This document shows positions 2,958 to 51,497 of a stretch of DNA of 64,000 nucleotides, piece by piece. A program made the translations under genes and the position numbers. Below the pieces are notes generated by a model. It had not been told where the DNA came from. It worked only from the letters and a program-made list of their open reading frames with translations, and ran no database searches. The DNA comes from Candidatus Tisiphia endosymbiont of Nedyus quadrimaculatus (GTDB lineage: Bacteria > Pseudomonadota > Alphaproteobacteria > Rickettsiales > Rickettsiaceae). Location of the stretch: assembly GCF_964059235.1 (NCBI RefSeq), contig NZ_OZ060452.1, forward strand, positions 1,426,001 to 1,490,000. Direction: 5' to 3'. How positions within the stretch are numbered: position 1 is the stretch's first letter; each line of letters opens with the position of its first letter.

Positions 2958-3598
2958 AAATACAATAAATGATTAATTGTTAATATAACAACACAAGAAG
3001 CCAGTACATCACTTAAAAAATGTCCTCCCATTAATATACGACTTAGCCCAACTAATGTACCAAAAATCAATGTGATACTGTAAATTCTTGAGAAAAATAT
3101 CAAAGGAGCAACATAAGCAAGACTAGTTAAGCTATACCCCATAGCTGCATGGCCTGATGAAAATGAGCAATTATGTAAACATTCATTAGAGATTGAGAAG
3201 GCTCTAGTAAAATTTTTTGTACCATTAAACTCTTTAATCTGCAGCGGACGAGCCCTACCAAAATTTTCTTTAAATATATAATTTACTAGTAGTCCAGGAC
3301 CTATTGCTGTAGATAAAATTATATAAAAGCCCCCTGAAATAATAAGCCTATTAAAAGTTTTGTACTTAACAATTAAGTAAAGTAGGTATAATAATATTAC
3401 TATAGTCAGTAGTTTACTTAATATTGGAATAACTTCAAATAATAATTGTACAATATTATTGTTACGATAGATAAATCCATTATTGCTGTCGTAGAATAAT
3501 TTTGAGAAATCTATATCCAAATTAGGAAATAGTATAGTTAATAATAAAACTATACCAAAGGTGAATATACTAGTATAAACTAAATTAGTATTAATCAT
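2930..3598 (-). CDS. PAP2-family membrane phosphatase
   Basis: A membrane phosphatase of the type-2 phosphatidic acid phosphatase superfamily. Members act on undecaprenyl pyrophosphate, phosphatidylglycerol phosphate or lipid A; the substrate here is unknown. All three signature motifs are present in order: K110...RARP (115-118), FSSGHA (147-151) and SR186...H193...D197. About six hydrophobic segments are visible, including 10-25, 55-77, 86-106 and 170-186. It is first in a two-gene minus-strand operon with nadK and is divergent from RNase J, sharing a 63-bp promoter region. Confidence 0.85.
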   Translation of the reverse strand: MINTNLVYTSIFTFGIVLLLTILFPNLDIDFSKLFYDSNNGFIYRNNNIVQLLFEVIPILSKLLTIVILLYLLYLIVKYKTFNRLIISGGFYIILSTAIGPGLLVNYIFKENFGRARPLQIKEFNGTKNFTRAFSISNECLHNCSFSSGHAAMGYSLTSLAYVAPLIFFSRIYSITLIFGTLVGLSRILMGGHFLSDVLASCVVILTINHLLYLCWQKLKLI

Positions 3599-5379: not shown

Positions 5380-6702
5380 ATGAAATCACATAGTTTTACA
5401 TCTGATGATGCTATACAAAATACAGATAAAGTCTTACAATATATAGCAGAGTCCTTTGATCCTAAACATGACAAAGATTATCGAGAAAATCCTAGATCTA
5501 GTGAAAAACAGGTTAACAAGGATATAAACCGCGGTGTCTTTTATCTTGAAACCCAAGGTGGAGAGCTAGTAAACTTACTAGCTAAGTGTAAGTTAGGTAA
5601 AGATCCGGACTATAAGGTAACTTATCAAGATATGCATGATATGTTAACAAAAGATTATCATTTATCAAAAAAACAAACAGAATATATTTTAGCTGCAAAT
5701 CACCAAGGTAGTATAGCTGGTGCTATGGCTGGATTCACTGAACTAAAAGTGAAAGCAGTTAATAATGATAGATATGATCTTGGGAGTGAATGGATAAGAG
5801 ATGGTAGTATGTCCAAGATCACTATAGATAAAGATCATAACGTATCATATATCGGCGGACAAAATTTCATATTTGATTGTAGTATGGATGCTTTCTCCCC
5901 ACATAGTGACCTTAGGAAGATGATGGGTACGAAATTTAATAGCCAAGATTATATGGCTGTAAATATTACCGCTTCGTTGGGAACAGTAGGATATCCTGAC
6001 CCAAAAACGCAGGTAGTAATTGATGTGGCTGGTACTGGTAAGATTGCTGATCGATTTATTAGTGATATACAAGCAATCCAAACAAAGTGTGAGCCAAAAG
6101 ACCCTCAAGCAATTATTGATAGTAATAAGGCTTTATCAAAAGAATTATTAACTCCTCCTTTTACTGATGAACAATATAAAACTTATTTGGAAGAAAGAGT
6201 TTCAGAAATCATATCCTCTGAGGAAAATAAGCCTAAAGTAATACCCACATTTAAAAAAGCAGAGGGTGCTACAGAGGCTTTAGCTGACATATTGATAGAG
6301 CAAGTTGATCAAGCAATCGCAGCTCAAAAAGATACAAAGACAGGGAAATTAAGTTCACAGTCCATTAATGACATTGCTAAAAAAGCTGCGGAACAGTTAA
6401 ATAAGTTTATCGATAATCCAAATAAATATACAGTAAAGAAATTTACTAAGCAATTAGTAAATGATCAAGCTAAATTATCGAAGACGATAATGCCAAGGAA
6501 AAATTTTATTAAAAGAATTTGTGAATATTTAAAAGATAAATGGCATGGATATTCTGATGACAAGAGCAAACTACCATTGGCTGAACAATTGAAGAATGAA
6601 GCAAAATTTGTCGGACAAAAAGCAAAATCACATATGTCATCTAAAGCACCAACGTTACCACCTCCACATAATGAAAAAACGGAAGGTAAAGGAAGAAGTT
6701 AG
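5380..6702 (+). CDS. Unrecognised 440-aa protein
   Basis: I do not recognise a family. The 440-aa product has no signal peptide or obvious membrane segment. The N-terminal 100 residues are charged. A region at 90-215 looks globular with beta-rich, Gly-containing stretches (AANHQGSIAGAMAGF). The C-terminal half is Lys/Gln/Glu-rich and helical, ending in a basic tail with PTLPPPH and GKGRS. Start ATG 5380 is preceded by AAGGAAG, a good ribosome-binding site. Composition (soluble, low complexity, Pro-containing tail) would fit a secreted or host-interacting protein, but that is inference only. It stands between RNase J and the convergent tsaB. Confidence 0.8.
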   Translation: MKSHSFTSDDAIQNTDKVLQYIAESFDPKHDKDYRENPRSSEKQVNKDINRGVFYLETQGGELVNLLAKCKLGKDPDYKVTYQDMHDMLTKDYHLSKKQTEYILAANHQGSIAGAMAGFTELKVKAVNNDRYDLGSEWIRDGSMSKITIDKDHNVSYIGGQNFIFDCSMDAFSPHSDLRKMMGTKFNSQDYMAVNITASLGTVGYPDPKTQVVIDVAGTGKIADRFISDIQAIQTKCEPKDPQAIIDSNKALSKELLTPPFTDEQYKTYLEERVSEIISSEENKPKVIPTFKKAEGATEALADILIEQVDQAIAAQKDTKTGKLSSQSINDIAKKAAEQLNKFIDNPNKYTVKKFTKQLVNDQAKLSKTIMPRKNFIKRICEYLKDKWHGYSDDKSKLPLAEQLKNEAKFVGQKAKSHMSSKAPTLPPPHNEKTEGKGRS

Positions 6703-34021: not shown

Positions 34022-34402
34022 ATGGCTAATGATATGCAGAACAAGAAACCACTTAATTGTACACTTAGTACTTATTTAAGTGGTTCTTTACTTAATCAGT
34101 TAAAAAATATTATTATTTCAAACAAAGCAGCCGGTAATTATCAGTATACTAGTGTTTCTGATCTATTACGTAATGCACTTGTAGCCCACAAAAATGGCAT
34201 GACATTAACTGCTCATGATATAAAAGAGAGTACGAAAAATAAACTCACTTATTCTTTACGAGTTCCACAAGAATTATATGACTTCTATTTGACTTTCCCT
34301 CAAAATGTTAAATCAGAAATCTTTGAAAGAGCAGTTAGGACATATATCAAACTTTATGAAAATAAACCCGATGAATGCCAATGGCATTCATCCTTGAATT
34401 GA
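34022..34402 (+). CDS. Tandem ribbon-helix-helix-like DNA-binding protein
   Basis: The 126-aa protein shows two repeats of the beta-helix-helix pattern: LNCTLSTYLSGSLLNQL ... TSVSDLLRNALVAH (about 10-57) and LTYSLRVPQELYDFY ... SEIFERAVRTYIKLY (about 75-115). It is probably a regulator that binds DNA as a pseudo-dimer unit. Its last codons (DECQWHSS) are encoded by the palindrome GATGAATGCCAATGGCATTC, found again at 38379-38402. A terminator hairpin follows directly. Confidence 0.65.
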   Translation: MANDMQNKKPLNCTLSTYLSGSLLNQLKNIIISNKAAGNYQYTSVSDLLRNALVAHKNGMTLTAHDIKESTKNKLTYSLRVPQELYDFYLTFPQNVKSEIFERAVRTYIKLYENKPDECQWHSSLN

Positions 34403-34404
34403 AC

Positions 34405-34428
34405 TTATAGCGGAGCTATAACTTTTTT
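34405..34428 (+). terminator. Rho-independent terminator
   Basis: TTATAGC pairs with GCTATAA across a GGA loop, followed by CTTTTTT. It lies 2 bp after the stop of the ribbon-helix-helix gene. The rest of the gap to 34737 is AT-rich, with a half palindrome at about 34569-34580, and holds no gene. Confidence 0.75.
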
Positions 34429-35653: not shown

Positions 35654-35983
35654 TTAATTAGTATTAGACCTAGCAAATACTCTAAATTCATCAAGTAGCA
35701 TTTTAAGATGCAGATTTATATCTTCTAACTGAAAGGTAGCATGCAATATGTGATGTTCTTTCTTAGCTGTACTGTTAGCTAGCTCTGTGGTTTTTTGATA
35801 CAGACTTGCTATTTCATTTTGTGCTTTAATGTAGATATTAGAGAAATCCTTGCAAATAACCTCGATCTCGCTATAGGCTAATCTGATATTATTAAGCCAT
35901 TTTATCGATATTAGGAGTAAGAGTATCTGTCCGATGATTATGCTGAATGCTAAAATAGCCAAGGCCAATATTTGGTAATTCAT
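35654..35983 (-). CDS. Small single-pass membrane protein, 109 aa
   Basis: No recognised family. One N-terminal membrane helix (about 6-28, LAILAFSIIIGQILLLLIS) is followed by a long helical, coiled-coil-like cytoplasmic part (about 35-105). It lies next to the structured RNA candidate and is divergent from it. Confidence 0.55.
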   Translation of the reverse strand: MNYQILALAILAFSIIIGQILLLLISIKWLNNIRLAYSEIEVICKDFSNIYIKAQNEIASLYQKTTELANSTAKKEHHILHATFQLEDINLHLKMLLDEFRVFARSNTN

Positions 35984-36079: not shown

Positions 36080-36108
36080 TTGATTTGGCTAAGAAATTTG
36101 TATATGAT
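36080..36108 (+). promoter_or_regulatory. Promoter of structured RNA copy 1
   Basis: TTGATT (36080-36085), exactly 17 bp, then TATGAT (36103-36108). The same arrangement is conserved in copy 2 at 44335-44363 although the spacer has diverged. Confidence 0.7.
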
Positions 36109-36114
36109 CATAGT

Positions 36115-36297
36115 GATACCTCAATAAAAAGGTTGTTATTTAAATAGCATTTGATGCTATTTGATTAATTTCACTGGTAAGTACTTTTGAGCCTGCAAAA
36201 CTTTGAGTACTTACCAGTATATTATTCCCCAATGTAACATTTAAGTTTTGGCTTTATTAATAAGCTTAATACTTAAGTATTACACTGGGTTTTTTTA
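36115..36297 (+). ncRNA. Candidate structured small RNA, copy 1
   Basis: A predicted transcript of about 180 nt with three hairpins. P1 is AAATAGCAT/ATGCTATTT (36142-36162). P2 is ACTGGTAAGTACT/AGTACTTACCAGT (36173-36218). P3 is TGTAACATTTAAG/CTTAAGTATTACA (36233-36285), followed by CTGGGTTTTTTT as a terminator tail. Copy 2 at 44370-44541 keeps all three with paired changes (P2 GG/CC versus AG/CT; P3 TTAAG/CTTAA versus TCAAG/CTTGA). It has no reading frame of note. It ends about 170 bp before the tandem-XRE gene. Confidence 0.65.
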
Positions 36298-36418
36298 GTT
36301 TGAGATTTAGCAAAGTATATTCTTTGCTTTAAAAAATTAATCAATAATCACAGATCTTTTTTTTAATGATCTCATCCTATTTTGCTAGTTTATTATAATT
36401 ATTTTGGGGTGTCAAGAG

Positions 36419-36441
36419 AAATGAACAATGTTTGTTCATTT
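36419..36441. promoter_or_regulatory. Perfect 23-bp palindrome, probable operator of XRE gene 1
   Basis: AAATGAACAA-TGT-TTGTTCATTT, two perfect 10-bp arms, centred 41 bp upstream of ATG 36471. A TATAAT at 36394-36399 lies just upstream, so a repressor bound here would sit at the transcription start region. The paralog has a different palindrome at the equivalent place (44827-44839). Confidence 0.7.
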
Positions 36442-36470
36442 TTTATTAGAAATATTAAATTATTTAAAGT

Positions 36471-37019
36471 ATGGCTCTTGTTCATCAAATACAAATATTT
36501 TTAACACATAAATTAAAAGATAATAATTTAAAACGTAAAACTTTCGCACAAAATAGTAATATTTTATATAAAACCGTATGTAATATTATTAATTCTGTAC
36601 GATCTAATCCGGAATTGGAAACTATATTGAAAATTGCTAATTATTTTAAATGTTCTATGAACGAAGTAATTGGTAGAAATGAATATGTTTCTATAAATCA
36701 AAAAGATTATAACTTTCAAATAATTAGTTCAGAAGACATAAATACTAATTTAAGACACTTTCTTAATAAAAAACTTAAAGAGAAAAATATTAATCCATCT
36801 CAATTAGGTATAACTATTGGTTTTAGCCAAGAAGTCATTCCCAAATTCTTAAAAGAAAGTAATCCTAAGAAGACACTTAGTAGTACAGTTACTGTAGCCC
36901 TAGCAGATTATTTTCAAGTATCACTAGATGAAATGGTTGGTAGAATTGCCCCTACTAAAGATACTGACAAATCTTCTGAGCAAAGCTCCAATAGTGATTC
37001 TGATCTGAATAATTTATAA
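36471..37019 (+). CDS. Tandem XRE-type helix-turn-helix regulator, copy 1
   Basis: The 182-aa protein contains two XRE-like domains in a row. The first (about 4-65) ends KIANYFKCSMNEVIGRN. The second (about 86-152) ends VALADYFQVSLDEMVGRI. A Ser/Asp-rich tail follows (SSEQSSNSDSDLNNL). It is a paralog of 44876-45442, including the first six residues MALVHQ/K. Two fused domains could bind a palindrome as a monomer. It probably represses its own promoter through 36419-36441; the upstream small RNA may be a further control. Confidence 0.82.
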   Translation: MALVHQIQIFLTHKLKDNNLKRKTFAQNSNILYKTVCNIINSVRSNPELETILKIANYFKCSMNEVIGRNEYVSINQKDYNFQIISSEDINTNLRHFLNKKLKEKNINPSQLGITIGFSQEVIPKFLKESNPKKTLSSTVTVALADYFQVSLDEMVGRIAPTKDTDKSSEQSSNSDSDLNNL

Positions 37020-38326: not shown

Positions 38327-38378
38327 AAATCACCTCAAAAAAATGTTAAAATTTAATAAAAAAATAGAAATAAATCAG

Positions 38379-38402
38379 ATGAATGCCTTTGGCATTCATC
38401 CT
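38379..38402. repeat. GATGAATGCC...GGCATTCATC palindrome
   Basis: The same short palindrome as at 34370-34392, again followed by CTTGA. Here it is intergenic; there it encodes the end of the ribbon-helix-helix protein. Confidence 0.6.
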
Positions 38403-38416
38403 TGAGGAGACCTTTT

Positions 38417-38577: not shown

Positions 38578-39504
38578 ATGGCTATTTCCCGTTTTCTCGA
38601 TCCAAAAAATGATTTTTGCTTTAAGCAAATCTTTGGTACAGAGAAAAATAAAGATATATTAATTCACTTCCTTAATGATATTTTGGGATATCAAGGAAAA
38701 GATCAAATCATTGAGGTTAGTTTTCTTAAAACTATACAAGACCCTGCTATTGCAGCATATCGGCAATCTATAGTAGATGTTTTGTGTAAAGACCAAAATG
38801 GCACGCAAGTAATTGTCGAGATGCAAGTTAGTGAACATGCTGGTTTTGAAAAAAGGGCTCAATATTACGCAGCTAAAGCCTATTCACAGCAAATACTCAA
38901 AGAAGATGAGAATCATAAGAAGTTAGCAGTATATGCTAAACTGAAAGGAGTGATATTTTTGGCTATTGCTGATTTCATCATGTTTCCTGACAAAAAAGAT
39001 TGGAAATCAACCCATCGAATGTTGGACAGCAAGACGCATGAGCATGATCTCAAAGATTTTTATTTTATCTTTGCTGAACTAAAAAAATTCCATAAAACCA
39101 TTGATCAGTTAGAGAATATTGAAGAAAAATGGATGTACTTTTTCAAGCATGCTCATCATAGCACTTTAGCTGAAATGGAACATTTAATTGGCCATGATAT
39201 TATCATTAAAAGAGCTTTTCAAGCGATAGACCAAGCCTCTTGGACGGAAGCAGAGTTAAATACCTATGATAAAATAACCAAAACCCAGCTAGACAATCTA
39301 GCAGTAGAACAGTTTAAAATTGCACAAGCTGAAAAAGCTGCTGAAGCTAGAGGTAGGGAGGAAGAAAGAAAAATCAGTGAAACTAAATTAAAAGAAGAAA
39401 GAATAACTATAGCTAGAAAATTACTTAAAGAAAATATGACATCTGAGCATATAGCTAATATTACTGGTTTAAGTATTGAAGAAATCAACAAACTACTAAA
39501 ATAG
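38578..39504 (+). CDS. Rpn family PD-(D/E)XK nuclease/putative transposase, copy 1
   Basis: A recombination-promoting nuclease-type protein, abundant in rickettsial mobile DNA. It begins with the family hallmark FLDPKNDFCFKQIFGTEKNK (about 6-25). The nuclease core is IVDVLCKDQNGTQVIVEMQV (Asp about 67, Glu-X-Gln about 80-82). The C-terminus is charged, then has a small helix-turn-helix-like motif (ENMTSEHIANITGLSIEEIN). It is 308 aa and looks intact. Confidence 0.88.
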   Translation: MAISRFLDPKNDFCFKQIFGTEKNKDILIHFLNDILGYQGKDQIIEVSFLKTIQDPAIAAYRQSIVDVLCKDQNGTQVIVEMQVSEHAGFEKRAQYYAAKAYSQQILKEDENHKKLAVYAKLKGVIFLAIADFIMFPDKKDWKSTHRMLDSKTHEHDLKDFYFIFAELKKFHKTIDQLENIEEKWMYFFKHAHHSTLAEMEHLIGHDIIIKRAFQAIDQASWTEAELNTYDKITKTQLDNLAVEQFKIAQAEKAAEARGREEERKISETKLKEERITIARKLLKENMTSEHIANITGLSIEEINKLLK

Positions 39505-40272: not shown

Positions 40273-40524
40273 ATGCACCATATTTATACTAATCTTACCG
40301 ACAGTATATCAGAATTTAAAAAAAGTCCTACAGCATTGCTGGCTAAATCTAGCGGTGAGCCAATTGCTTTATTGAATCATAATAAACCAACGGCTTATTT
40401 AGTTCCAGCTGAGCTATACGAACAAATAGTTGAAATATTAGATGATAGAGATTTACTTAAACTTGCTGAAGAAAGACTAAAAGAAAAGAAAGAAGCTATA
40501 GCAGTTAATCTAAATGATTTATAA
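40273..40524 (+). CDS. Phd/YefM-type antitoxin
   Basis: The 83-aa antitoxin has the Phd/YefM N-terminal fold (TNLTDSISEFKKSPTALLAK, then GEPIALLNHNKPTAYLVPAE at about 28-47) and a charged C-terminal toxin-binding tail. It overlaps the toxin gene by 11 bp. The complex would be expected to repress its own promoter. Confidence 0.88.
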   Translation: MHHIYTNLTDSISEFKKSPTALLAKSSGEPIALLNHNKPTAYLVPAELYEQIVEILDDRDLLKLAEERLKEKKEAIAVNLNDL

Positions 40525-40834
40525 ACTTGAATTTGTTCCTGCTGCAAAGAAAGAATGGGATAAATTAGGTGAAGTTATTAAACAACAATTCAAAAAGAAA
40601 TTATCAAGCAGGTTAATTAATCCTCATATACTAAAAGATGCCCTAAGTGGAGGGACTAATTTATATAAAATAAAGCTAAAATATGCAGGATATAGGTTAG
40701 TTTATGAAGTTGATGACATACGAATAACAGTACTTGTTTTAAGCATAGGGAAAAGAAACCGTAATGAAGTATATAAAAAATTAACTTCTAGGCTGGAAAA
40801 AACAAGTAAGTACGGGAATCTTAAAAACACTTAA
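40514..40834 (+). CDS. RelE/ParE-family toxin
   Basis: The 106-aa protein has the RelE pattern: YKLEFVPAAKKEWDKL (3-18), then the strand pair YKIKLKYAGYRLVYEV (about 51-66) and VLVLSIGKRNRNEVYK (about 74-89). Arg and Lys at the usual catalytic positions are retained. It is probably a ribosome-dependent mRNA interferase. It overlaps its antitoxin gene, the usual order. Confidence 0.88.
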   Translation: MIYKLEFVPAAKKEWDKLGEVIKQQFKKKLSSRLINPHILKDALSGGTNLYKIKLKYAGYRLVYEVDDIRITVLVLSIGKRNRNEVYKKLTSRLEKTSKYGNLKNT

Positions 40835-41926: not shown

Positions 41927-43427
41927 TTGTTTATAGTGGAAACAATTGGAAGAATACGTAGAATGTATTACGTTGATGGCAAAGCAATTAAAGCAATTGC
42001 TAGAGAACTGAATATATCAAAGAATACAGTAAAAAAAGTCATTCGCAGCAATCAAACTAAATTTGAGTTAGCAAAATATAGCAAAGGTAAGCCTGTTCTT
42101 GGCAATCATCTTGAAGTACTAAATCAGCTATTAGCAGAGAATAGCAAGGAGTCGGTTCGACGTAGAATGACGGCAGCTATACCAACAGCTTCAGATATCG
42201 GGTTATACAGGAAGTTACGAATCTGTGAATCTAATTGTACGAAACTTCCGTAGAGAATACGAGGCAAGGGGCGGGCAAGTTTTTATTCCATTAAATTTTG
42301 AAGCTGGTCAGGCGTTTCAGTTTGATTGGGGAGAGGAAGAAATATGTTTAAATGGGGAGGTTACTAGAGTTAAAGCAGCGAGAATAAAGCTATGCTATAG
42401 TCGTTATTCTTTGGTAGTGGTTTATCCTAATGAGCAGCTGGAAATGGTTATGGATGCCCATGATCAAGCTTTCAAGTTTTTTGCTGGTTGTTGTAAGAAT
42501 GGTATTTATGACAATATGAAGACGGCTGTCAAAAAAATATTGATTGGCAAGGATCGTATCTTTAACGAGAAGTTTATCCAAATGGTCTCTCACCATTTAT
42601 TTGAGCCACTTGCCTGTAGTCCAGCATCAGGATGGGAGAAAGGACAGGTTGAGAAACAAGTAGGAGACACTAGACGTAACTTTTTTACTCCAATATTGAA
42701 AGGAGATAGTTATGAAGCTATTAACATTCAGCTAAGAGAGATGTCTATAGAGTGGGCTAAAACTAAAAGACATCCTGAATTTACAGAAAGAACGATTCTA
42801 GAAATATATGAGGAAGAGAAGGCATATTTAATAGGATATAGAGGGCAGTTTACCGGTTATAGATTACATCCAACGACCGTATCACCTTTGAGTTTAATAC
42901 AATACGACAGCAATATGTATAGTGTTCCGTGTGAATATGTGGGACTTAGCGTACAGATTAAATCCTATGCTTGGCAAATAGTGATTTTACATAAAAGCAA
43001 GATTATTGCAGAGCATGTTCGTAGTTTTAAACGCTATCAGAAGAATTATAATCCATGGCACTATATAGCAGCTCTAGAACGTAAACCCGGTGCTTTACGT
43101 AATGGTGGACCGTTCAAAGAGTTAATGAGTTTGTTACCTGAGATATTTGGCAAACTACGAAATAAGTTAGAGACTTACAAGGATGGTGATAAACAATTTA
43201 TAGATATCCTGCTACTTGTTAATAAGTATGGATTAGAAAAGGTAACAAATGCTTGTAACCTAACAATTGCTGCTGGCGGCTGTAGCTCTAAATTAGTTGA
43301 GCAATATTTGTTGCAACCAGCAATGAAACTAGATATCCAAGAGACTGAGTTTATTCAGCTAAAAAATCCTCCTGATGCTGATTGTAGTATTTATAGCAAG
43401 TTGCATTTAACAACGGAGGTAAATTAA
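41927..43427 (+). pseudogene. istA: IS21-family transposase IstA, frameshifted
   Basis: The N-terminal part (helix-turn-helix KAIKAIARELNISKNTVKKV) is read in one frame to 42253. The catalytic part (AFQFDWGEEEICLNGE, CCKNGIYDNMKTAV) runs in another from about 42180. Around 42168-42180 the sequence ATGACGGCAGCTATACCAAC appears to have lost bases relative to an expected MTA-x-QLYQQLQISGYTG reading, breaking the frame. IS21 istA normally has a single frame, so this is a mutation rather than programmed shifting. Confidence 0.8.
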
Positions 43428-44138
43428 ATGAAAGACTTAATATTGTTATTAGATAAATTAGGTTTAGTCGGTATGAAGATGCAGTTAGCTGAGTCAAGTA
43501 ATTTAACAAATGATGTTCCTACTACTAGTGTGTATGATGTGTTAAAGAAACTTCTTGAAGCAGAGTGTGAATATAAGAAGTCACGCTCGCTAGGTTATAG
43601 GTTGCAACTAGCTAAGTTCCCAACCATAAAGTTACTATCAGATACATGCCAAGCTAAATTGGTTGAAAATATTGATATACAAAAAGTGATTGATAATCAT
43701 CAGAATATCATGTTCATAGGTGGTTCTGGGTCTGCAAAAACTCATCTAGCAATTGGTTTGGCGTTCACCGCCATTGAAAAAAGTTACAGGGTAAGATTTT
43801 ATACTTTAAATGAATTAGCTAGCCAATTGCTTAATGCTAGAATCCATAATTATGAAAGCAAATTCATCGATTCAGTTAAGAGATTCCATCTGATTGTAGT
43901 AGATGAATTAGGCTATGTACCAATAAAAGGCGAAGCTAGATTCCTGTTATTTGAGTTATTTGCTAAATTGTATGAGCAAACTTCAGTGATCATTACTACC
44001 CATTTGAGATTTGAAGAATGGAATGATATGTTTGGTAATGCTAAGGCAACAAAAGTAATTATCGATAGATTGACACATCATTGTCAAATCATAGAAACTG
44101 GTAATAAAAGTTTTAGAGGAGGGAAAGATGTAGATTAA
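43428..44138 (+). CDS. istB: IS21-family helper ATPase IstB
   Basis: An AAA+ transposition helper similar to DnaC. Length is 236 aa. The P-loop reads GGSGSAKTHLA (about 99-109) with Ala where the family normally has Gly before the Lys. Walker B is LIVVDELGYVP (about 153-163). The C-terminus ends SFRGGKD, as usual. It starts 1 bp after istA. Confidence 0.9.
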   Translation: MKDLILLLDKLGLVGMKMQLAESSNLTNDVPTTSVYDVLKKLLEAECEYKKSRSLGYRLQLAKFPTIKLLSDTCQAKLVENIDIQKVIDNHQNIMFIGGSGSAKTHLAIGLAFTAIEKSYRVRFYTLNELASQLLNARIHNYESKFIDSVKRFHLIVVDELGYVPIKGEARFLLFELFAKLYEQTSVIITTHLRFEEWNDMFGNAKATKVIIDRLTHHCQIIETGNKSFRGGKDVD

Positions 44139-44334: not shown

Positions 44335-44363
44335 TTGACTAGTGGAGAAAATTTGTGTATGAT
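44335..44363 (+). promoter_or_regulatory. Promoter of structured RNA copy 2
   Basis: TTGACT (44335-44340), exactly 17 bp, TATGAT (44358-44363), matching copy 1 at 36080-36108. Confidence 0.7.
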
Positions 44364-44369
44364 CATAGT

Positions 44370-44541
44370 TACACCTCAATAATGGTTGTAATTTAATAGC
44401 AGTGCTATTGGATTAATTTTTCTAGTAAGTACTTTGAGCACTCAAACTTTAGAGTACTTACTAGTGTATATCCCAAATGTAACATTCAAGTTTTAACTTT
44501 ATTAATAAGCTAAACACTTGAGCGTTACACTGGCTTTTTTA
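44370..44541 (+). ncRNA. Candidate structured small RNA, copy 2
   Basis: It carries the same three hairpins as 36115-36297: AATAGC/GCTATT (about 44395-44409), CTAGTAAGTACT/AGTACTTACTAG (about 44422-44464) and TGTAACATTCAAG/CTTGAGCGTTACA (about 44478-44529), then CTGGCTTTTTT. Sequence differences from copy 1 fall mainly in loops or as paired changes. A 152-bp palindrome (44555-44706) has inserted between its end and the XRE gene. Confidence 0.65.
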
Positions 44542-44554
44542 GTTTGAGACTCAT

Positions 44555-44706
44555 AGCTAATCCGATTAGCATTACTCCGTCATTGCAAGGAGTGCATAAG
44601 CACGACGAAGCAATCCAAATTTAATTTTTCTAGATTGCTTCGTCGCTACTAAAGTAGCTTCTCGCAATGACGCCAATTTATATGGCTAAATACTAATCGG
44701 ATAGCT
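44555..44706. repeat. 152-bp palindromic element inserted in the XRE-2 leader
   Basis: AGCTAATCCGATTAG at the left faces CTAATCGGATAGCT at the right. Inside, GACGAAGCAATCCAAATTT and AGATTGCTTCGTCG form a second hairpin. A related scrap, AGCGACGAAGCAATCTAAAG, is at 44251-44270. The paralogous leader at 36 kb lacks the element, so it arrived after duplication. Confidence 0.8.
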
Positions 44707-44826
44707 AAACCAAAATGTGTATTTTGGTTCTAAAAAAATAGTCAGTAGTTACTGACCTATTTTTTTGCTCTCATCCTATTTTTGGGAGTTTATTACAATT
44801 ATTTTGAGGTGTCAAGAAAAAAATTG

Positions 44827-44839
44827 CGTCATGGTGACG
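44827..44839. promoter_or_regulatory. Palindrome, probable operator of XRE gene 2
   Basis: CGTCA-TGG-TGACG, at the position where XRE gene 1 has AAATGAACAATGTTTGTTCA. The sequence just upstream (GAGGTGTCAAGAAAAA) is conserved between copies, but the palindromes are unrelated. Confidence 0.5.
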
Positions 44840-44875
44840 TGTTTTTATTTAAGTAGCACTTTTTATGTTAATATA

Positions 44876-45442
44876 ATGGCTCTTGTTCATAAAATACAAG
44901 AATTTTTAAAGAAAAAATTCGATGAATTGAACTTAAAAAGAAAGGAATTTTCTAGAAAAAGTGGTATTCCTTACTCTACTGTAATTGATATAACAAAAGG
45001 ACTTAAATTAAATCCTTCTATAAATAGTATACTTAAAATTGCTAATTATTTTAGATGTCCAATTGATGAAGTTATTGGGAGAAATAAATATATTACTTTA
45101 CATAGTTCAAAAGACTTTGAATTTCATGAAATAACTTTAGATGAGGTGACAGCTAATATAAAGCATTTTCTAAAAAATAAAGTCAGTAACCAAAATATCA
45201 ATTTGTATAAACTAAGTATAGATATAGGATTTAGTAATAACTCTTTACATAGTTTTGTTAATAGTAATAGAGAACAAAAAACTTTAAATAATCAAATTAT
45301 AGTAGCCCTAGCAGATCATTTTCAAATATCAATAGATGAAATGGTTGGTAGAATTAAGCCCACTACTGCTGATAATGATGAGGCTTCTCAACAAAACTCC
45401 ATGAGGCTTCTCAACAAAACTCCAATAGTGATTCTGATCTGA
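44876..45442 (+). CDS. Tandem XRE-type helix-turn-helix regulator, copy 2 (frameshifted tail)
   Basis: It is a paralog of 36471-37019. ATG 44876 is chosen because MALVHK matches the paralog's start; the frame further upstream is leader. Two XRE-like domains end KIANYFRCPIDEVIGRN and VALADHFQISIDEMVGRI. A 23-bp tandem duplication (45378-45400 and 45401-45423, unit starting ATGAGGCTTCTCAACAAAAC) shifts the frame. The tail is now MRLLNKTPIVILI instead of the expected NSDSDLNNL, which is still encoded downstream out of frame. Both DNA-binding domains are intact. Confidence 0.82.
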   Translation: MALVHKIQEFLKKKFDELNLKRKEFSRKSGIPYSTVIDITKGLKLNPSINSILKIANYFRCPIDEVIGRNKYITLHSSKDFEFHEITLDEVTANIKHFLKNKVSNQNINLYKLSIDIGFSNNSLHSFVNSNREQKTLNNQIIVALADHFQISIDEMVGRIKPTTADNDEASQQNSMRLLNKTPIVILI

Positions 45443-45758: not shown

Positions 45759-45793
45759 CTTTATAATTGATAACTACTAATAGCAGCATATAT

Positions 45794-46729
45794 ATGGATA
45801 AAATAACTCCTAGAGTTGATTTGGCATTTAAGAAAATCTTTGGCGTAGAAGAGAATAAGGATTTGCTGATATCCTTGATTAATTCAATTGTATCTAAGGA
45901 AGATCAGGTGGCAGAACTAACGCTGCTTAATCCATATAATCCAAAGAACTTTAAGAGTGATAAACTCTCAATATTAGATGTTAAAGCCAAATCCGTTGAT
46001 GGCAAAAGGTTCAATATTGAAATTCAAATTAGCGACGAAGCTGATTATGATAAGCGAGCTTTATATTACTGGGCTAAATTATATACTGAACAATTAAAGG
46101 TAGCTCAGGACTATTCTACCCTAAGCAAAGCCATTGGTATTCATATTCTAAACTTTACTTCTATTCCGAATGTAACTAAGTATCACAATGTTTTTCATAT
46201 AGTTGAAAAAGATAGTGGATTGTTGTATTTCAAGGATCTCGAATTACATACTATTGAGCTTAATAAGTTTACTGATAATTCTTATGAGGAATTACCTGAT
46301 ATACTGAAAAAAGTAAAAAACTCTTTAGATATGTGGACAGCTTTTTTAACAAGACATGATCTACTGAACAAAGATAATTTGCCTAAAGAATTAGACAATG
46401 CCTCCTTAAAAAAAGCTCTAACAGTGCTAGATGTTATGAACTTTACTGACGAAGAAAGAGAGGCCTATGAAGACCATCTTAAATGGCTTCGTATAGAAGC
46501 TAACACTCTAAAAAAACAACTGGAAAAAGGTAGAGAGGAAGGTAGAGAGGAAGGCAGAGAGGAAGGTAGAGAGGAAGGCAGAGAGGAAGGTAGAGAGGAA
46601 GGTAAAAAGGAAGGTAGAGAGGAAGAAAGAATATCTATGGCAAAAGAAATGCTATTAAACAATGAGCCGATGGAAAAAATTATTAAATACACTAAGTTAA
46701 GTAAATCTCAAATAGAAAATCTAAAATAA
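45794..46729 (+). CDS. Rpn family PD-(D/E)XK nuclease/putative transposase, copy 2
   Basis: The start ATG 45794 (MDKITPRVDLAFKKIFGVEE) matches the family N-terminus; a TTG at 45767 is less likely. Nuclease core residues are seen in LSILDVKAKSVDGKRFNIEI then QISDEAD. The C-terminal tail contains six or more REEG units encoded by a 12-bp tandem repeat (about 46530-46625), then the RISMAKEMLLNNEPMEKIIK helix motif. It appears intact. Confidence 0.88.
   Translation: MDKITPRVDLAFKKIFGVEENKDLLISLINSIVSKEDQVAELTLLNPYNPKNFKSDKLSILDVKAKSVDGKRFNIEIQISDEADYDKRALYYWAKLYTEQLKVAQDYSTLSKAIGIHILNFTSIPNVTKYHNVFHIVEKDSGLLYFKDLELHTIELNKFTDNSYEELPDILKKVKNSLDMWTAFLTRHDLLNKDNLPKELDNASLKKALTVLDVMNFTDEEREAYEDHLKWLRIEANTLKKQLEKGREEGREEGREEGREEGREEGREEGKKEGREEERISMAKEMLLNNEPMEKIIKYTKLSKSQIENLK
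46530..46625 (+). repeat. 12-bp tandem repeat encoding (REEG)n
   Basis: Units of GGTAGAGAGGAA / GGCAGAGAGGAA repeat about eight times. Length changes in whole units would keep the Rpn frame, so the tail can expand or shrink. Confidence 0.85.
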
Positions 46730-47115: not shown

Positions 47116-47676
47116 ATGATAACAAAAGTCTCTAATATTTATCAATTTAAAATTACTTTGAAATATACAAAACCTAAAATTTGGCGACGTATACAAGTGC
47201 TAGAAAAATACAGTTTTGAAGATCTACACTTTGCCATTCAAAACTGTATGGGATGGGAGAACTATCATTTACATCAGTTTGAGATAATAAACCCTAAGAC
47301 TGGCCAAAAAGATTTGATTAGTATGCCAGATGATGAAGGGTTTTGCGATGTAATTCTTGAAGATAAAGCAAAAATAGCTAAATATTTTCTATCCCCTAAA
47401 GATAAAGCGATTTATGAGTATGATTTTGGGGATGGATGGAAACATGAAATTGTTTTAGAAGAGATTTTACCTGCAGTTGTTGGTGCTACCTATCCTCAAT
47501 GTCTTGCTGGTAAAATGGCATGCCCACCAGAAGACTGTGGAGGAGTAGGTGGTTATGAATATCTTTTAGAGATTATAGCCAATCCAAATCATGAAGAATA
47601 CGAGGAGCGTATCGAATGGTTAGGTGATGATTTTAATCCAGAAGAGTTTGATCCAAAATTAGTTCAGTTTAAGTAA
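47116..47676 (+). CDS. Plasmid pRiA4b ORF-3 family protein (transposon passenger)
   Basis: The 186-aa protein matches the pRiA4b ORF3-like family: YQFKITLKYTKPKIWRRIQV (about 9-28), FEDLHFAIQNCMGWENYHLH (about 35-54) and YEYDFGDGWKHEI (about 100-112), with the Cys-containing CPPEDCGGVGGYEYLLE segment. The function of the family is unknown. It is carried between the left inverted repeat and tnpA. Confidence 0.9.
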   Translation: MITKVSNIYQFKITLKYTKPKIWRRIQVLEKYSFEDLHFAIQNCMGWENYHLHQFEIINPKTGQKDLISMPDDEGFCDVILEDKAKIAKYFLSPKDKAIYEYDFGDGWKHEIVLEEILPAVVGATYPQCLAGKMACPPEDCGGVGGYEYLLEIIANPNHEEYEERIEWLGDDFNPEEFDPKLVQFK

Positions 47677-47700
47677 TAATACGGATCTAAAATATAGAAA

Positions 47701-50700
47701 ATGCAAAACAATTTATCCCAACATAATAATATTCTTGATAATGAAGCTATTTTTACGTTAGATAGCGAAGAAATTGCTTTGGCACAGGGTAAAAATACTC
47801 AAGAAAATAAATTAGCTTTTGCTGTTATGCTTAAGTTTTTTCAACTGGAAAAACGATACCCTAGGGAGATTGATGTAATACCACAACCAATGTTTAATAG
47901 TCTTGCTATCCAACTAGATTGCCTAGATGTCAGCCTTGATAATTATAACTGGGATAGCAGAAGTTCAAAGCGATTTCGTCAAGCAATTAGGTTGTTATTA
48001 GGGTATAGAAAAGCTAGTGTAAATGATAGCAAGAAGTTAATTGCTTGGTTAATAGAAGATATCTTACCACAAGTACCAACATTACCTCAAATTACAGAAC
48101 AAGCTTATCAATTTTGTACTAAACATCAGTTTGAACCATTTAAACCTGCACAATTAGATCGCTATATTGCATCAGCTTGTCATAGATTTGAGATGCAATT
48201 TTTCTTTAGTATTTCACAGCAATTATCTGTTGATACTATGAACTCTATAGATGCTTTATTAAAAATAGAGGATGACAATGAAACACTAGAGAAAGAGTCA
48301 AATGATGCAACCATCTATAAAGTCAATAATAAAGAAGATATTATTAAAAGATTAAAGCAAATTCAATTAAGGCATCTTAAAAAAGATATAGCAGGAGCTA
48401 AATTAAAAAATGTTAGTGATGAAATAGATAAACTAAAGCGACTAAGAATACTGAATTTACCTAGTATGCTAAGCTTAGTTCCAAGAAAACTAAAGCAAAA
48501 ATACTATACAAGAATTTGTGCTGAGTTACCAAGTGAGATAGAAGATCTTAAGACTGATACTCATTATGCAACTATGGCAATATTTTGTCATTTTCGTTGT
48601 GGATTAATAACAGATAATTTAGTAACAACATTAATTCAGTTAATTCATAAAATAAGAACATCAGCGGAAATATCAGTTAATAAAGATATATTGTCTGAAG
48701 TTAAATGTGTTAATGGTAAATTTGATATTTTGTATACTCTAGCCGACACATCTATAGCCAAACCACATGGTGTAATTCATGATACAATTTATCCAAAAGT
48801 TAGTAAAGAAACGCTGAGTGATCTAGCTAAAGAACTAGTATCTAATAAAAATAGCTGGTATCAATCAGAAGTGCAAAAGAAAATGCATTCAAGTTACTCA
48901 CATGCCAATCGCCGCATATTACTAATGTTATTAGAAATATTTACTTTTCGATCAAATAATCAAGCTTGTAAAGCAATATTGCAAGCTATTGAATTTATTA
49001 AGACTAACAAGAATATTAAGGATAAATATTATCCTGACTCCAAGCTTGTACCAGCTAAAGAGGATATCCCAAGTAAGTGGCAAGCTACGGTAATAGAGGA
49101 ACAAGAAGTAGTTGAAGATAGTAAGAAAAATAATATAAATAAAGTTATAAATGTTAAAATCAATCGAATGAGTTATGAAGTAGCGATTTTAGAAACATTA
49201 CATAATTTATTAGATACTAAGCAAATATGGGTTGAAGGGGCATATCGTTACCGTAATCCAGAAGAGGATTTACCAAAGGATTTTGATTCCAATGCACAAT
49301 ATTATTATCAAAAGTTAGGACTACCAATGGATGGCAATGAATTCATTCAATCATTGCAAGATAGCTTAGATAAGCATTTACAAGAATTTAACAAAAACAT
49401 CTGTGATAATAAAAAGGTAAAAATTGCTATTGCTAAGAATAGTACTAATGGACATATTAAGTTAACTCCATATGATGCTCAAATTGAACCAACTAATTTG
49501 TTAGCATTCCAACAATCAATTAATAAACGTTGGGGAACCATAAATTTAATAGATGTATTAAAAGAAGCAGACTCACGTATTGGTTTTACTAAACATTTTC
49601 ATACAGTAGCAAGTAGAAAGAATATTAAGGAATCTAAACTTCTTAAACGTATACTACTATCATTATATGCTATCGGTAGTAATACAGGATTAAAACGTAT
49701 TAGTGCCGCTAATGATGAAATAAATTACTCCGATTTGCGTTATATTAAGAGACGATATCTCAATACAGCTAATGTACGAGAGGCTACAGCTGAAGTTATC
49801 AATGCTATTTTAGAAACAAGAGATTCTAAAATTTGGGGTGATGCTACTACCGGATGTGCTTGCGACTCAACTAAGGTAAGTAGCTGGGATCAAAATCTAA
49901 TGACAGAATGGCATACACGTTATAAAGGACGTGGTGTAATGATTTATTGGCATGTAGATAAAAATGCCGCATGCATATACTCTCAACTCAAAACATGTTC
50001 TTCCTCGGAAGTTGGATCTATGATCAAAGGAGTACTTGACCATTCGAGTAAAATGGATATGAAAAAAACCTATGTAGATACTCACGGACAAAGTATTATT
50101 GGTTTTGCTTGCAGTTACTTATTAACTTTTGATTTATTACCACGTCTTAAAAACATAAAGAAACAAAAACTTTTTTACTCGCATGCAAAAGATAGAGGAA
50201 ATTATAAAAATTTAACTAGTATTTTAGAATCATCGATAAATTGGAGTTTGATTAAGAAATACTATCATGAGGTAATAAGATACATAGCAGCATTAAGGAC
50301 TGGTCACGTTGAACCAGAGGTTATGTTTAAAATTCTGAGTAACAGCAATAATGATCATCCTGTTTATAAGACGCTAATTGAGATTGGTAGAGCGGTAAAG
50401 ACCATATTTCTATCTCGTTATCTAATGTCCGAAGAATTGCGTATAGAAATCCATGAAGCATTAAATGTTGTTGAGAGATTAAATAGTATAATGGGTTTCA
50501 TATTTTATGGTAAGTTGGGTGAAATCTCTACCAATAACCGAGATGATCAAGAATTAGCCATAGTTTGCCTACATTTATTACAAGTATGTATGGTATATAT
50601 TAATACATTGATTATACAGGAAGTTTTATCAGATCCAGTTTGGCAAAATAAGCTAACTATTGAAGATAAAAGAGCTTTAAGTCCACTAATTCATAGCCAT

Positions 50701-50781
50701 ATTAATCCATATGGCTTATTTCCTTTAGATATGGATAAACGCTTAATCATAGAGCAACCAAAAGTAAAGGTAGCAGCATGA
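47701..50781 (+). CDS. tnpA: Tn3-family transposase TnpA
   Basis: The 1026-aa product is full length for Tn3-type transposases. The N-terminal region has a DUF4158-like domain (about 20-170), and the DDE catalytic domain occupies about 640-1000. Catalytic Asp regions are [15 protein letters not shown] (about 720) and [12 protein letters not shown] (about 783), and the Glu lies in [12 protein letters not shown] (about 922). It overlaps the recombinase gene by 4 bp (ATGA), so both are co-expressed. It appears intact. Confidence 0.94.
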
Positions 50782-51497
50782 TTAATAATACTGGATTAAC
50801 ACGTACTCCTGTCCGTCAAAAGGCTAAGCAATTAGCTAAATCATTAAGACAAGAATATCCAAATTATGATTATTTACGCGAGTTATTTCGGCATTTGCGA
50901 CAAGAATTAAACGTAGAAGTAAATCATAAAGTTAAGAAACTACCATACGTGCCAACTGAAGAGGAGATAGGTAAATATTATAAAGTAGTTTGGCAATCTC
51001 GTAATATGAAACATGTAGTAATAATTAAGACTTTATTATATACAGGTATAAGGGTTAGTGAGTTAGTTAAGGTAAAATTAAGTGACGTTGATTCAGATAG
51101 ATGTCAAATAAGAATCATCGAAGGTAAGGGTAAAAAAGACAGAATAGTTCCGTTTCCTAATAACTTTAAGGAAATACTAGCATTACATGTGGAGACAATG
51201 GAAAAAATAGGGGCACAATATTTGTTCGAATCATCTTGGAAAAAGCCATATACTGATCGAGGTATTAGAAAAATCCTAATGCAGTATACAAAAGAAGCTG
51301 GCATAGAAGAATCCATTTCCCCACATAAATTAAGACATTTTTTATTTACTTGGTTAAAGAAGCAAGGAGTAGAAGATGCTTTAATTCAGCCATATTCAGG
51401 GCATGAAAGTCGTCAATCTTTAGAGATTTATTCAAAATTATCTATAGGGGATGCTCAGAAAGAATATGATAATGTAATTAAGAAATTTCCTGTCTGA
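50778..51497 (+). CDS. Tyrosine recombinase (cointegrate resolvase of the transposon)
   Basis: A XerC/D-like integrase of 239 aa. The catalytic set is visible: Arg in [14 protein letters not shown] (about 90), Lys in [13 protein letters not shown] (about 183-187), GHES (about 205) and Tyr in LEIYSKL (about 219). It probably resolves cointegrates at a res site in the transposon, as TnpI does. The box normally written LLGH is here PYSGH. Confidence 0.9.

Follow-up and report, generated by a model that had tools for sequence, protein, structure and literature searches.

The window analysed here is the whole 64,000-nt stretch of DNA from the Candidatus Tisiphia endosymbiont of Nedyus quadrimaculatus, whose 1.66-Mb genome forms a single contig. 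At two places in the window, a predicted promoter of the consensus TTGAYT-N17-TATGAT is followed by three hairpins and a T-run, an element that we call RNA1, and then by a same-strand gene for a tandem-XRE regulator (Table 1). The distance from the end of the T-run to the start of this gene is 173 nt for copy 1 (ATG 36471) and 334 nt for copy 2 (ATG 44876). In copy 1, RNA1 consists of a small 5' hairpin, P1, P2 and P3, in that order, and a T-run ending at 36297. A first-pass annotation of the window had already placed both copies, and its coordinates, promoters, stems and T-runs were reproduced when we re-read the sequence. The folding z-scores are -7.1 for copy 1 and -5.7 for copy 2, and none of the 200 shuffles of either copy was equally stable. 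A scan of the window against Rfam 15 at the family gathering scores gave a tRNA as its sole match, and a permissive search of the RNA1 unit reached 18.1 bits at best, against a cut-off of 88. Together with the covariation statistics given below, these results support the earlier view that RNA1 is a structured RNA outside any named family. In the open-licence literature, mostly screened by titles and opening lines of abstracts, we recognised no description of it.

Table 1 Features of the two RNA1–XRE units in the window
Feature	Position	Strand	Remarks
Divergent small protein, hydrophobic N-terminus	35654..35983	-	109 aa; ORF
RNA1 promoter, copy 1 (predicted)	36080..36108	+	TTGATT 36080-36085, 17-nt spacer, TATGAT 36103-36108; alignment of 28 copies
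RNA1, copy 1	36112..36297	+	~185 nt, putative 5' end; fold, covariance model, covariation
P2 hairpin, copy 1	36173..36218	+	GGTAAGTACTT/AAGTACTTACC type; nearly invariant across Tisiphia
P3 hairpin and T-run, copy 1	36228..36297	+	Intrinsic-terminator-like; covarying
Hairpin H4, copy 1	36309..36328	.	Strand unassigned
Hairpin H5, copy 1	36331..36367	.	Terminator-like, A-run on one side and T-run on the other; stem very weak
Predicted reverse promoter, copy 1	36387..36415	-	TTGACA-N17-TAAACT, directed back at RNA1
Hypervariable XRE-leader hairpin, copy 1	36416..36446	+	
Tandem-XRE (HTH_26) regulator, copy 1	36471..37019	+	182 aa; Pfam
RNA1 promoter, copy 2 (predicted)	44335..44363	+	TTGACT 44335-44340, N17, TATGAT 44358-44363
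RNA1, copy 2	44367..44541	+	Fold; covariance model match E 1.8e-34; T-run to 44541
Palindromic repeat element	44552..44707	.	Insertion separating the RNA1 and XRE halves of copy 2
Hairpin H5, copy 2	44731..44767	.	Terminator-like, runs on both sides
Predicted reverse promoter, copy 2	44787..44815	-	TTGACA-N17-TAAACT
Hypervariable XRE-leader hairpin, copy 2	44816..44850	+	
Tandem-XRE regulator, copy 2	44876..45442	+	188 aa; Pfam (scanned from 44879)

The window has several further features. A Phd/YefM antitoxin and a ParE-type toxin gene form a pair at 40273-40834 (Pfam), and an IS21-like transposase with its IstB partner (41927-44138) lies 5' of RNA1 copy 2. Two PD-(D/E)XK (PDDEXK_2) transposase-family genes (38578-39504 and 45767-46729) are each preceded by a 49-bp direct repeat (94% identical), and a 12-bp tandem repeat array lies within the second, at about 46503-46646. 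A Tn3-family transposase, a phage-type integrase and a pRiA4b ORF-3-like gene occupy 47116-51497. Another direct repeat (34360-34406 and 38368-38414, 83%) holds the inverted repeat GATGAATGCC..GGCATTCATC.

RNA1 had been described as a duplicated RNA; both copies exist, but it is more than a duplicate, with four copies in this genome and many more in the genus. The first-pass annotation had proposed a covariance-model search, and the model, built from 28 copies, finds full copies in 11 of the 16 Tisiphia genomes, 30 in all and each with E 3e-19 or better; the weaker rows of this search are mostly opposite-strand echoes at places already counted. The underlying alignment omits G013e and G013f of the 30 full copies and has 27 distinct rows. 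Under stricter filters, 69 other Rickettsiaceae genomes yielded no match to the model at E<=0.01. Besides the full copies, the Tisiphia genomes contain two decayed ones (L081 of G013, near 5642, and L082 of G004, near 2423), which miss P2 and P3, apparently through deletion between two CACTGG sites, and which now precede a transporter-like gene. A blastn search of collections with 72,556 plasmid records and 50,697 phage records, from which close records may be missing, returned nothing, and the idea that a phage or plasmid carries this DNA was rejected on this result. Scanning for the P2 pattern gave no match in viral contigs and six stretches in genome contigs, one from Rickettsia sp. nzgw532 and five from Colwellia or uncultured bacteria. 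Homogenisation of RNA1 within genomes was also considered and is not claimed (p 0.028 for the 30 copies, p 0.21 for the 23 units with an intact XRE gene).

Conserved pairing with covariation, a criterion for structured bacterial RNA, is found in the 28-copy alignment. Paired cells make up 95.3% of it, against 28-51% in slid structures, and 39 cells have changed on both sides, compared with 14.9 in shuffles (0/500) and 1-12 in slid structures. Counted by pair, the excess of two-sided changes is modest (9 against 6.1 shuffled, 27/500), and further pair types are no better than shuffles (232/500). The signal comes largely from P3, in which 7 of 16 pairs show two-sided changes. P2 has 7 invariant pairs among its 12, two-sided changes in a single pair (columns 74/115) and 5 unpaired cells. 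The compensatory changes previously noted between the window copies (CTGG/CCAG against CTAG/CTAG in P2, TTAAG/CTTAA against TCAAG/CTTGA in P3) are indeed present in the alignment; the P3 part of that observation is borne out by the family as a whole, but P2 is mostly invariant, so that its case hangs on one pair. On the sense strand, G-U cells outnumber A-C cells 87 to 26, or 45 to 22 when columns in which G-U is commonest are left out, an excess suggesting that this is the strand read as RNA, although the relatedness of the copies calls for caution. The T-run closing RNA1 reaches 5 T or more in 20 of the 30 copies and 4 or more in 25; in the other 5 it does not exceed 3.

These data bear on whether the element works as RNA at all. 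It could consist solely of DNA signals, either inverted repeats that the XRE protein uses as operators or remnants of a mobile repeat, as the nearly invariant P2 arms and the match of the XRE proteins to DNA-binding folds would allow. The sense-strand wobble bias and the covariation of P3 argue against this, as do a P2 loop variable in both length and sequence and the conservation of the promoter, and we regard a DNA-only element as very unlikely.

The genes that follow RNA1 encode proteins with HTH_26 and HTH_3 matches only in Pfam. The structure model of copy 1 (mean pLDDT 83.6) contains two helical HTH blocks; a Foldseek search with it against the PDB gave no match at E<=0.001, the best entries being single-HTH repressors, and a profile search returned 3op9 and CylR2, so that structure comparison is uninformative beyond the label XRE. 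Behind 23 of the 30 full RNA1 copies lies a same-strand ORF of 166-188 aa for a tandem-XRE protein, and RNA1 is full-length in all seven units without an intact XRE gene. The gene is frameshifted in four of these (G001b, G012b, G014a and G002c), keeps an open frame with ATT in place of ATG in G002a, and is absent from G007b and G015b; the last two units are close relatives, and their intact RNA1 therefore says little on selection. RNA1 identity and XRE identity are uncorrelated across the 23 units (Spearman -0.09, p 0.82), as illustrated by the pair G000a/G000c, with 94% identity in the RNA and 54% in the protein. RNA1 thus shows no sign of being tailored to one particular XRE protein. The identity of the XRE leader does follow that of the XRE gene (Spearman 0.38, p 0.0015).

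Between P3 and the XRE gene, the order of elements is a conserved TAGTTTGAGA, an optional palindromic repeat, H4, H5, a reverse-promoter motif and the leader hairpin. A long palindromic repeat separates the two halves in 17 of 28 units examined; the one in copy 2 is presumably of the Rickettsia palindromic-element type. H5-type hairpins with runs on both sides were found by pattern in 23 of 30 units and by eye in 5 more, and H5 is absent from the two units that lack the XRE half. The reverse motif TTGACA-N17-TANNNT, which reads as a predicted sigma-70 promoter, is present at exactly 17 nt in 47 of 50 XRE loci, which are related and not independent, and the second hexamer fits 0-1 of the 50 at spacings of 13-16 and 18-22 nt; a spacing of 12 also fits 30 loci because the stretch is AT-rich. 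The TGTCAA box served as the anchor of this count, in which only the second hexamer and the spacing were tested. Three of 53 loci (G008_333, G087p_1 and G102), without a GTCAA/GCCAA site in the searched stretch, were dropped, and G001a, G008a, G001b and G002a were placed by a rule similar to the one counted. The sequence of the leader hairpin differs between units, and the hairpin is significant alone (p<=0.05) in 27 of 50 loci. Mismatches in 25 distinct leader hairpins comprise 26 G-T and 7 A-C. The correlation between XRE and leader identities would fit a DNA operator, but this mismatch bias favours RNA and suggests that the element is an RNA hairpin.

With this arrangement, RNA1 may also be read as a regulated leader at the 5' end of the XRE mRNA, in which P3, H5 and the leader hairpin would be attenuators and a short antisense RNA from the reverse promoter would set the read-through, much as RNAIII acts on repR mRNA in pIP501. 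This is the main rival to an independent small RNA. RNA1 lies upstream, on the XRE strand, in every unit that keeps XRE, and part of XRE transcription may start at the RNA1 promoter since inspection by eye shows no clear -35 box belonging to the XRE genes themselves. The exact spacing of the reverse motif, the H5-type hairpins and the RNA-like mismatches of the leader hairpin speak for such a leader. So does a layout like that of plasmid pIP501, in whose copR-RNAIII-repR region convergent promoters (predicted here) flank a long structured leader with attenuation, and a DNA-binding repressor and an RNA share one plasmid control region (PMC4981023). In pIP501 and pT181 the antisense promoter is convergent inside the leader, and the predicted TTGACA-N17-TANNNT motif would take this place here; the attenuated gene there is the replication initiator, and here the gene behind the leader is the tandem-XRE regulator itself. 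The likeness is one of layout, the copies that are certain here are chromosomal, and the cassette falls outside the pIP501 group, since it would control a gene other than the initiator. Several observations tell against a leader: RNA1 stays full-length in the seven units whose XRE gene is not intact, including two that have lost the whole XRE half; long palindromic repeats split the halves in most units examined; the similarities of RNA1 and XRE are unrelated; and two-thirds of the copies close P3 with a run of 5 or more T. We judge a regulated leader to be somewhat unlikely and favour a putative independent small RNA.

Alternatively, RNA1 could repress XRE if its 5'-terminal stretch (ACACCUCAA) paired with the beginning of the XRE mRNA. 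The first-pass annotation had raised an antisense role, and complementarity of ACACCUCAA to the putative mRNA start does exist, with runs of at least 9 pairs from RNA position 1-4 in 17 of 25 units. The run is, however, interrupted or truncated with no compensating change in the remaining eight (G012a, G015a, G007a, G001a, G008a, G013b, G013f and G002b), and reaches p<=0.05 in only 9 of 25. The motif matching ACACCUCAA sits in the spacer of the reverse promoter, so a DNA-level reason for its conservation is available. Crude duplex energies of RNA1 with the XRE mRNA are generally no better than shuffles (ranks 1-100 of 100 across the 25 units). Direct pairing of the RNA1 5' end with this mRNA is weakly supported, and repression by this route appears quite unlikely.

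On the other side of RNA1, copy 1 has a divergent gene for a 109-aa protein with no match in Pfam, homologues of which adjoin 11 of the 30 full RNA1 copies. RNA1 might be the antitoxin of this small membrane-type protein, and other small proteins diverge from the unit in several further clades. The gene is missing, however, beside 19 of the 30 units and belongs to no Pfam family, and the complementarity of RNA1 to its mRNA is mostly no better than in shuffles (one of 11 at rank 4 of 100, the others at 9 to 97, where the entry for G008b was a wrong ORF); a test for contiguous runs on the G007 plasmid gave p 0.14. We hold a toxin-antitoxin pair of this kind to be highly improbable. A pairing match to the "left gene" of G088p was discarded, being the RNA's own opposite strand. 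In Type III toxin-antitoxin systems such as ToxIN, a structured RNA and a terminator lie upstream of a protein gene, as they do here, but the protein encoded downstream of RNA1 has HTH_26 domains and no nuclease match: only HTH_26 and HTH_3 appear in Pfam, and a ToxN-like endoribonuclease is absent. Tandem repeats are not visible in the 28-copy RNA1 alignment; the repeat scan covered only repeats of at least 30 nt.

The XRE gene has relatives on plasmids. Its profile matches 50 of 85 Rickettsiaceae genomes, including small contigs of a sister genus (g9). Among the 23 tandem-XRE loci that do not belong to the multi-copy group, 19 show a promoter-like TTG-N17-TA 250-435 nt 5' of the gene, where 2.9 are expected. 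A similar layout is found at the XRE loci of the sister-genus small contigs and of a 77,550-bp Tisiphia plasmid, consisting of the promoter followed by a P2-like hairpin, TGTCAAG and a leader hairpin, the last three recognised by eye in several loci. The XRE gene adjoins both ParA and DnaA_N genes on G088:C2 and, as identical protein starts indicate, on G103:C26; it adjoins a DnaA_N gene on G007:C2 and G002:C139, and a ParA gene on G089:C2, G092:C2 and at a chromosomal locus of G023. The chromosomal Tisiphia RNA1 units have no adjoining parA or DnaA_N genes. On the sister-genus chromosome of G023 (L144), two inverted P2-like hairpins (1430-1476 and 3265-3311) flank ParA and tandem-XRE genes.

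Whether a relative of RNA1 accompanies the plasmid genes is less clear. The RNA1 model gives a full-length same-strand match just upstream of the gene in 4 of 18 plasmid-type loci (E 0.0012-0.073), two of which are nearly identical, and opposite-strand matches at two others (E 0.014 and 0.062). In a permissive whole-genome search of eight sister-genus genomes, the matches near plasmid XRE genes do not rise above the chromosomal background, the best chromosomal ones (27.7 bits, E 0.04) being as strong. Because of these equally strong background matches, the plasmid loci are not put forward as proven RNA1 homologues, and a related RNA at them is putative. Four chromosomal matches in the sister genus (G092:C1:697924-698050, G088:C1:1068502-1068628, G097:C38:2500-2626 and G087:C1:738113-738239; E 0.04-0.64) have the same length of 127 nt and possibly represent one shared hairpin element. 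By eye, the tandem-XRE locus of the Ac37b plasmid has no such RNA, and the single-copy Tisiphia group and some plasmid types seem to have weak terminators or none.

Published work on the Rickettsia monacensis plasmid pRM offers a hint from experiment. When the vector lacked an intact RM_p20 XRE gene together with the sequence upstream of it, transformants were obtained solely in R. monacensis, the carrier of pRM, and a vector with the RM_p20 region transformed all five species (PMC9004397). These deletions imply that the XRE gene or its upstream sequence is essential there; the authors suggested loss of the parA promoter as the explanation, and consider the mechanism of rickettsial parA and dnaA yet to be identified (PMC9004397). 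RM_p19 and RM_p20 resemble our genes in being HTH_XRE genes in a ParA/DnaA-like region, and their proteins are similar to those of Torix (Tisiphia) symbionts; compared through this published description, they differ in that it mentions no RNA for either (PMC9004397). A plasmid copy-control RNA, which the first-pass annotation had listed among its options, receives indirect support from the XRE family, the similar layout in plasmid ParA/DnaA_N regions and the pRM deletions, but not from the RNA model, which stays at background there. Small RNAs have been predicted in the Rickettsiaceae before, as trans-acting species, in a survey that scanned four plasmids and yielded one prediction (R. peacockii) (PMC4683814).

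Taking these lines together, we propose, with a probability of roughly 0.4, that RNA1 is a separate small RNA within a plasmid-derived RNA-plus-repressor cassette that multiplied on chromosomes. The left half of this cassette would comprise the forward promoter and an RNA1 of ~185 nt ending at P3, with the small divergent membrane-type protein gene to its left in the 11 chromosomal units mentioned above; the right half would comprise H5 with its two runs, the predicted reverse promoter, the hypervariable leader hairpin and the tandem-XRE gene. RNA1 is most likely made as a separate terminated small RNA that acts in trans on a putative target, and the neighbouring XRE protein is predicted to bind at the locus, where it would control its own gene and the adjacent promoters. 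On plasmids, by analogy, the RNA1/XRE pair would tune replication or partition genes (those of ParA and the DnaA_N protein), and the copy-control RNA RNAIII and the repressor CopR of pIP501 could serve as a model for their joint action. The cassette probably came from plasmids. On Tisiphia chromosomes it would then have multiplied, its XRE proteins and leader hairpins diversifying more than RNA1. Of this picture, the sequence itself establishes the RNA structure and its conservation, its genomic association with XRE genes, the promoter-like motifs and the XRE relatives on plasmids; a separate RNA1 transcript, XRE binding at the locus, a related RNA at the plasmid loci and the target of RNA1 are inferences.

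A more far-reaching version, which we regard as doubtful, would make this a new plasmid-control cassette of the Rickettsiaceae. It would consist of RNA1 (~185 nt), a convergent predicted RNA2 (~50 nt if it ends at H5) and a tandem-XRE gene with a private, fast-diversifying leader hairpin. Having left plasmids and multiplied on Tisiphia chromosomes, it would wire one shared RNA to many mutually independent repressors, and it may police or tolerate incoming plasmids.

Rickettsial shuttle vectors depend on the parA/dnaA region, and it is in this region of plasmids that protein relatives of the RNA1-linked repressor sit; the RNA and its adjacent repressor therefore offer a concrete control element to test. 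Lastly, the multi-copy chromosomal cassette of Tisiphia suggests that a plasmid control device may have become a host regulator family in these arthropod symbionts.
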